Below, in pieces: positions 1-2,513 of a stretch of DNA of 64,000 nucleotides (position 1 is the stretch's first letter; each line of letters starts with the position of its first letter). Position numbers and translations under genes: made by a program. The notes under the pieces are model-generated. The model was given only the letters and a program-made list of their open reading frames with translations, ran no database searches and was not told where the DNA came from. The DNA lies in the NCBI RefSeq assembly GCF_027451485.1, contig NZ_DAIDJE010000206.1, positions 1 to 64,000 of the forward strand. Direction: 5' to 3'. Source of the stretch: Bradyrhizobium sp. Its GTDB lineage: Bacteria; Pseudomonadota; Alphaproteobacteria; Rhizobiales; Xanthobacteraceae.

Positions 1-1496
<1,496 letters not shown>

Positions 1497-1518: not shown

Positions 1519-1833
1519 TTACGCGGCCTTCTTCTTCTGGGAGACGTCGGTCAGGACGCCCATGATGTCGCTCTCCTTCATGATGAGGAGATCTTCGCCA
1601 TCGATCTTGACCTCGGTGCCCGACCACTTGCCGAACAGAACGCGGTCGCCAACCTTGATGTCGATCGGGATCAGCTTGCCGGACTCGTCGCGGCCGCCCG
1701 GGCCGACGGCGATGACTTCGCCCTGGGAGGGCTTTTCCTTGGCCGTATCGGGAATGATGATGCCGCCTGCGGTCTTCTCTTCGGCGTCGACGCGCTTGAC
1801 CACGACGCGGTCGTGAAGCGGACGGAATTTCAT
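1519..1833 (-). CDS. groES: Co-chaperonin GroES, 10 kDa
   Basis: Heptameric lid of the GroEL chamber. The 104-residue product [14 protein letters not shown].. has the expected length, the GGIIIPD mobile-loop segment around residues 23-29 and the [15 protein letters not shown] beta-barrel core. The ATG at 1833 is preceded by a strong AGGAGG site 5 nt away. First gene of the groES-groEL operon; promoter and CIRCE element lie within 110 nt upstream. Confidence 0.98.
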
Positions 1834-1877: not shown

Positions 1878-1904
1878 TTAGCAGTCTCCGCCGGCGAGTG
1901 CCAG
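1878..1904 (-). promoter_or_regulatory. CIRCE element, HrcA operator of groESL
   Basis: On the plus strand the sequence reads TTAGCAGTC, nine bases, GAGTGCCAG. This matches the CIRCE consensus TTAGCACTC-N9-GAGTGCTAA with one mismatch in the left arm and two in the right. It lies 45-71 nt upstream of the groES ATG and just downstream of a candidate -10 box, where HrcA bound to the operator would block transcription start or early elongation. Confidence 0.9.
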
Positions 1905-1915
1905 CGGGTGATACG

Positions 1916-1944
1916 GAGATAATCCAAAGTTTTCGGGGAGACAA
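1916..1944 (-). promoter_or_regulatory. Candidate groESL promoter
   Basis: Reading the minus strand, TTGTCT (1944-1939) and TATCTC (1921-1916) are separated by 17 bases, and the CIRCE element begins 11 bases after the -10 box. The upstream CTTG also fits an RpoH-type -35. The spacing to CIRCE and to groES supports it, but the sigma factor cannot be assigned from sequence. Confidence 0.55.
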
Positions 1945-2039
1945 GGGGCGGTAGCAGAAAAATTGGCACTCACACAAGGCCTCTGCCAGCTTCCTGTTGT
2001 CAGCGTTAATGCGGGCGCCCCTAAGCTGGGACGGCACTA

Positions 2040-2066
2040 TTAGCAGTCGAGCTAAGTGGCTGCTAA
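2040..2066. promoter_or_regulatory. Second CIRCE-like inverted repeat
   Basis: TTAGCAGTC, nine bases, GGCTGCTAA. The arms are complementary at eight of nine positions and the 9-9-9 layout is that of CIRCE. Its left arm is identical to the left arm of the groESL CIRCE at 1878. It sits 207 nt upstream of groES and 163 nt upstream of usg, so it may act as an auxiliary HrcA site, serve a promoter facing usg, or be a relic of a duplicated groE promoter. Confidence 0.6.
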
Positions 2067-2228
2067 CGCTAGCTTTTTCAACAGATCGTTAAACATTTAG
2101 GCTTGTGATGGGTTGTTCGCGTGCGTCACATTTCTCTCATGTGAGTGCATCTCGACTCACGGTGGCACCTGCCATCACGGCGTCAGCCACCGCGGCCCAG
2201 CTGCACTCTCGCAATTTGGAGGGTTGGC

Positions 2229-2513
2229 ATGGTCTCGCGGGTTGGTGTTTCCGAAGATTTCCGGAAACAAGTGCTGGGTTATGGGCTGACGACGGCGGAA
2301 ATTCTCTATCGGCTGCCGGATCATCCCTCGCTGCTCCAGACCTACGTCTGGCAGAACTACGATCTGTTCCCGAAATTCCCGGCGCTGCGGGATTTCCTGC
2401 ACTTCTGGCAGGAAAAGCTCGAGGGACCGCTCTATTCGGTCCGTGTCGCGCATTCCAAGCTGATCAAGCCCGCCGACTTTCGCGCCGTCGACGGCGTGTT
2501 CCGTCTGCATTGA
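2229..2513 (+). CDS. usg: Usg family protein
   Basis: Small 94-residue protein of the Usg family, first noted near tryptophan genes in alphaproteobacteria; the biochemical role is unknown. The sequence has the family hallmarks LGYGLTTAEILYRLPDHPS, LLQTYVWQ and VRVAHSKLIKP. The ATG at 2229 is chosen because GGAGGG precedes it by 5 nt and it matches the usual family N-terminus MVS; the open frame continues upstream to 2145 without a ribosome site. It stands alone, followed by a palindromic repeat. Confidence 0.85.
   Translation: MVSRVGVSEDFRKQVLGYGLTTAEILYRLPDHPSLLQTYVWQNYDLFPKFPALRDFLHFWQEKLEGPLYSVRVAHSKLIKPADFRAVDGVFRLH

Follow-up and report, generated by a model that had tools for sequence, protein, structure and literature searches.

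The window is the whole stretch of Bradyrhizobium sp. DNA that was analysed, 64,000 nucleotides from a 5.3 Mb draft genome. Near its start, groEL and groES on the minus strand are divergent from usg on the plus strand, and the groES–usg gap of 395 bp contains three repeats of CIRCE type, termed here the inner, middle and outer sites. The features are listed below.

3..1478, minus strand: groEL (open reading frame with a PF00118 match), running past the window start
1519..1833, minus strand: groES (open reading frame recognized by eye; its translation recovers groES of relatives by tblastn)
1878..1904, no strand: inner CIRCE-type site, TTAGCAGTC-N9-GAGTGCCAG, located within the predicted 5′ leader and a putative operator of groESL
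1917..1945, minus strand: predicted groESL promoter, CTTGTC-N17-TTATCT, placed by eye; a similar CTTG...CCTATNTC is present in other genera
1963..1989, no strand: middle CIRCE-type site, TTGGCACTC-ACACAAGGC-CTCTGCCAG (9-9-9), a second putative groESL operator
2040..2066, no strand: outer CIRCE-like element of the TTAGCA-N13-GCTGCTAA class, assigned to usg
2075..2110, plus strand: conserved block TTTTCAACA-N6-TTAAACATTTAGGCTTGTGATG, the presumed usg promoter region, with strongly conserved columns in an alignment of 90 loci
2229..2513, plus strand: usg, Usg-like family PF06233 (E 2.7e-41), with the ATG at this position in 81 of the 90 aligned loci

A genome search finds one hrcA match (E 4.8e-59) and three groEL matches: a full copy on contig C20, the window copy, which is cut by the contig end, and a partial one. 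At the second groESL of the genome one CIRCE was found, TTGGCACTC-N9-GATTGCCAA (C20:74203-74229), and this is better than that of the window.

Promoters were placed by eye, since a sigma-70 consensus scan of 1834-2240 gave no promoter-like site. The predicted groESL promoter sits between the inner and middle sites and reads like an alphaproteobacterial RpoH-type promoter. The presumed usg promoter is placed in 2075-2110 and further downstream; in other genera of the family, taken to be Xanthobacteraceae, the counterpart of 2075-2110 is a related AT-rich block followed by CTTG. Positions 1700-2600 have no Rfam match at E values up to 1. The usg leader carries an inverted repeat, TCACAT-N7-ATGTGA (2126-2144), with high conservation across the 90 Bradyrhizobium loci and no match in Rfam; it may be bound by a second regulator or form a hairpin in the leader. 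A terminator-like short stem with a T run (1892-1880, minus strand, groES sense) overlaps the inner site. One such stem was found against 0.2 expected in shuffles, and it may be due to chance.

Three repeats and the putative groESL operator pair

The repeats share with the HrcA/CIRCE class I operator (TTAGCACTC-N9-GAGTGCTAA) the 9-9-9 geometry and the outer hexamers, as well as the presence of hrcA in the genome. When up to three mismatches to this consensus are allowed, the window has exactly two matches, 1878-1904 and 2040-2066, and 100 shuffles have none. The left arms of the two are identical (TTAGCAGTC) and their centres are 162 bp apart; eight of nine arm pairs form in the outer repeat. 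The pattern search thus confirms the initial annotation, which had described two 9-9-9 repeats about 160 bp apart with a shared left arm and one mismatched pair in the outer one. Its view of the inner site as the normal CIRCE does not hold, as only six of nine pairs form there and the site has three consensus differences, the same number as the outer site (15 of 18 letters). The third 9-9-9 site, the middle one at 1963-1989, had been overlooked and is also conserved. Scoring of HrcA-type sites over the genome (TTAGCANTC-N9-GAGTGCTAA), a check that the initial annotation had proposed, gave eight rows, representing five distinct places, compared with nine in the reversed control. Three-mismatch matches across a genome prove little, and the significance of the outer site therefore rests on its conservation.

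The groES–usg region was matched in 186 of 195 genomes in a search of the genus, and 90 loci from the matching genomes were aligned. The outer element is 27 nt long in all 90, and all 90 have both TTAGCA and TGCYAR. Absence from close relatives, which the initial annotation had named as grounds for discarding the outer repeat, is therefore not what is found. Averaged over columns, identity reaches 98.7% in the outer hexamers, 94.4% in the inner arms and 91.6% in the middle hexamers, compared with 69% in the inner spacer, 60.8% in positions 1990-2039 and 79.9% in the whole gap. Conservation of pairing in the outer repeat is uneven: the six outer pairs hold in 90–100% of loci, and of the inner three one holds in 23%, one in 11% and one in 2%, so that the near-perfect 9-bp pairing of the window is an exception among its relatives. 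The right arm in Bradyrhizobium and relatives is (T/C/G)GCTGCTAA instead of GAGTGCTAA. Among 34 named Bradyrhizobium/Tardiphaga loci the right inner triplet is TGC in 31, and the left inner triplet is CGG or CGT in 22 and CTC or GTC in one.

On the groESL side, the inner-to-middle start distance is 85–88 bp in 90/90 loci (87 bp in 81 of them; 85 bp in the window). Within the family, 69 loci have groES in the stretch read; 30 of these have one site, 37 were called two-site and two are of other kinds. Locus L105 has inner, middle and usg sites, and L135 has none by the same rule. In the one-site loci the single groESL site is near-perfect, and its distance from groES is 106–157 bp in 29 of the 30. 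The remaining locus, L130, is the second groES–usg copy of genome G356 and has its site at 31 bp. Ten of the loci called two-site (L129, L148, L149, L151, L153, L156, L158, L161, L165 and L168) were removed because their second match is the usg element or another site and not one of groESL, and the remaining 27 have an inner/middle pair with a spacing of 81–89 bp. The middle site of the window is 129 bp from groES and, as this falls within 106–157 bp, it corresponds in position to the lone near-perfect CIRCE that other genera have. The inner site seems to have been gained in the Bradyrhizobium branch, if the order of events has been read correctly. The proposal of paired CIRCE elements at groE is borne out for the inner and middle sites, with their constant spacing, and fails for the inner and outer ones; judged from sequence, the real partner of the inner site at groESL is the middle site.

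Earlier reports provide parallels. The predicted start is followed closely by the inner site, much as in Lactobacillus plantarum groESL, whose CIRCE begins 4 nt after the start site (PMC1676014). HrcA presumably requires GroESL (PMC1676014). Two CIRCE elements in one control region are already known elsewhere, in front of Lactococcus lactis dnaK (PMC1676014) and L. plantarum hrcA (PMC3842655). These resemble the present locus in having more than one HrcA-type site per control region, but as described there they serve one operon, whereas on the present reading two sites would serve groESL and one the divergent usg.

The outer element and usg

The combination GGCACTC-N50..80-TTAGCA-N15-TGCYAR is present in 59 of 391 genomes of the family, and its reversed control in none. 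The usg gene was found in 73 of 75 chosen family genomes, representing 44 of 45 genera, and 74 usg loci from 72 genomes were read (two genomes have two loci each). With a score of 13 of 14 or better required, 68 of the 74 have an outer-type element no more than 300 bp from usg. At locus L134, groES is 944 bp from usg; two CIRCE are near groES and the element is near usg. Loci L108 and L114, where groES is 1168 and 1113 bp from usg, have the same layout; their usg-side copies are weaker and, at 392 and 365 bp, fall beyond the 300-bp count. Four loci (L128, L136, L170, L172) keep the element with no groES in the stretch read, and L173 has neither element nor groES there.

Across the order, TYAGCA-N13-GCTGCTAA is found at one place each in 60 of 397 genomes, and the reversed control gives nine matches in eight genomes. 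Thirty of these places were read, all outside the family. The usg gene adjoins 28 of them (L177 and L193 are without it), and groES is also present at only one of the 28 (L196). Because the element is kept with usg where groES is far away or absent, in the family and in the order alike, it goes with usg and not with groESL. This supports the second option in the initial annotation, that the outer repeat controls transcription towards usg.

The form of the element varies between genera. Among 80 named usg loci, 68 have it, five have a CIRCE-like site of another form and seven have none; the last include Methylocapsa, Methylocella and two Bosea copies. Many genera have a complete CIRCE sequence in the left arm (TYAGCACTC) or its GTC variant: 16 of 28 loci in the order, 26 of 70 in the family and 13 of 34 among named loci other than Bradyrhizobium. 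The left inner triplet is not fixed by the order-wide search pattern. These CTC and GTC triplets of usg elements occur in groESL CIRCE sites as well. As a separate observation, a contig labelled as a Candidatus Paceibacterota MAG (L239) encodes an alphaproteobacterial-type usg, probably through a binning error.

For the rest of the class, 60 usg loci were collected, one per family outside the order, which is 60 of 108 families. In 30 of the 60, groES is divergent from usg, and the gene neighbourhood looks ancient. With CIRCE-like sites defined by a score of at least 13 of 18, these 30 divergent regions comprise 21 with two sites, one with three, seven with one and one with none. The usg-side site is nearly canonical, GCAGCACTC-N9-GAGTGCTAA, in three loci (L297, L300, L336). 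The 30 loci without groES in the 700 bp read have an element or CIRCE-like site in 10 cases and none in 20. Altogether, 22 of the 60 class loci have no element or CIRCE-like site within 300 bp of usg.

HrcA as the candidate regulator

The hrcA gene is present in 393 of 396 order genomes, and its co-occurrence with usg within the order is consequently uninformative. It is absent from five of the 60 class genomes. With shuffles as the reference (p ≤ 0.01), 36 of 55 hrcA-positive and one of five hrcA-negative class genomes have a CIRCE-like site near usg. This leans towards HrcA, but the sample is small, the difference is about p 0.07 by hand and many of the 36 matches may be groES sites. L295 is counted among the 36, yet by eye its CIRCE with a perfect left arm faces a groEL gene, and it was dropped as a usg site. 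Of the hrcA-negative loci, L321 has groES adjacent and no site in the whole groES–usg gap, and L338 keeps a groES-side site. Two hrcA-negative order drafts keep an element, L344 clearly and L355 weakly. Incomplete assembly may explain the sites in hrcA-negative genomes.

The outer repeat is probably a usg operator that descends from CIRCE and is bound, most likely, by an HrcA dimer. The sites, their conservation and their association with usg are direct observations; that HrcA reads the outer element is a likely conclusion from them. In unstressed cells HrcA would occupy the outer element and hold usg down, and HrcA at the inner and middle sites would bracket the predicted groESL promoter and hold groESL down. 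On heat shock, loss of HrcA activity would release both divergent units, groESL and usg. The usg operator would have turned asymmetric in Bradyrhizobium and its relatives, with the outer hexamers TTAGCA/TGCTAA kept. The element differs from the classic CIRCE in going with usg, in its right arm, (T/C/G)GCTGCTAA, and in the mismatched inner three pairs of most Bradyrhizobium relatives.

These differences raise the question of whether a different dimeric regulator reads the usg operator, the hexamers and the 15-bp spacing being shared by descent or by convergence. The right arm is systematically unlike GAGTGCTAA, the two order drafts in which hrcA was not detected keep an element, and in the family the letters flanking the element are fixed (YGC-N-TTGA), which points to additional contacts. 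Nevertheless, the 27-bp geometry and the 12 outer letters are those of CIRCE, many genera have the left triplets CTC or GTC as at groESL, and the usg-side CIRCE is close to canonical in some distant families. In addition, four of five hrcA-negative class genomes have no site near usg, L321 having none in its whole gap. A different regulator is therefore considered unlikely.

It is far less probable that the inner and outer sites act jointly on groESL through HrcA looping across its promoter, as the initial annotation had suggested. Middle–outer distances in Bradyrhizobium do cluster at 63–65, 72–77 and 83–88 bp (one is 69), about one helical turn apart, with a helical phase R of 0.78 within the genus (90 loci whose sequences are not independent). 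However, 20 loci of other genera, with distances of 62–91 bp, display no helical phase (R 0.27; null 95% 0.38), and looping between the outer and inner sites is not supported. These 20 were picked by hand; five loci with the usg element more than 200 bp from the middle site (L108, L110, L112, L114, L134) were omitted, as were L127 (same layout as L126) and L143 and L146 (no outer match there). The five omitted for distance themselves argue against a loop, as do the 77 bp of the window, which is at the edge of its distance cluster, and the element without groES nearby at 27 of 28 usg-bearing order loci. HrcA is not known to form loops. That the outer repeat is a functionless chance or decaying sequence, as the background level of three-mismatch matches in the genome might imply, can practically be dismissed given the 98.7% identity of its outer hexamers against 60.8% for neighbouring 1990-2039 in the 90 loci and the presence of the element beside usg in other families.

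With the outer repeat taken as a usg operator read by HrcA, usg appears to share the heat-shock control of the chaperonins in many Alphaproteobacteria, as comparison of the loci suggests. A broader reading is slightly more probable than not. On this reading the divergent groESL–usg module, with its own HrcA operator for each arm, would date far back in Alphaproteobacteria, Usg would belong to the core of the HrcA heat-shock regulon and might work together with the chaperonin, and the usg operator would have evolved a conserved asymmetric form.

Heat induction of usg and earlier work

HrcA regulons are usually drawn as consisting of chaperone genes only. In a literature search that covered few of the subscription journals, usg was not named as a target of HrcA, and apart from PMC3989490 no text connected usg with HrcA or CIRCE. 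In Bradyrhizobium japonicum, CIRCE-associated groESL4 and groESL5 were reportedly derepressed in an hrcA mutant (Minder and co-workers, in 2000), an instance of CIRCE control of some groESL operons in the same genus as the window; that study is not known to mention a middle site, an outer site or usg.

Usg is a small, uncharacterised family, and with a conserved operator at its gene it can be assigned a testable position in the heat-shock response. The graded forms between canonical CIRCE and the asymmetric operator of usg, together with the inner/middle pair, constitute a natural experiment on HrcA specificity, and the asymmetric operator, if read by HrcA, would indicate how far HrcA recognition can drift.

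Expression data are available from Mesorhizobium loti. After heat shock at 48°C the usg copy msl2390 has an M value of 5.54 and groEL mlr2394 one of 5.79, and among the heat-induced genes tabulated there the Usg family gene ranks tenth (PMC3989490). The number of its locus is near that of the only groESL induced by heat, and in the portion of the report that was accessible usg is not linked to CIRCE (PMC3989490). As direct proof of the outer operator, this induction is set back by the family labelled f24, where two usg copies are present in nine of 14 usg-bearing genomes read. The f24 copies near groES have a close element in four of nine cases and lack it in five (L345-L349), and because of these five the M. 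loti induction may stem from the groESL operator. Thus the M. loti data support heat induction of usg and not an outer-type operator in particular. In two-copy f24 genomes one usg is often near groES and the other has the usg element. At loci L200 and L203, this other copy is divergent to what by eye is an acetyl-CoA synthetase gene.
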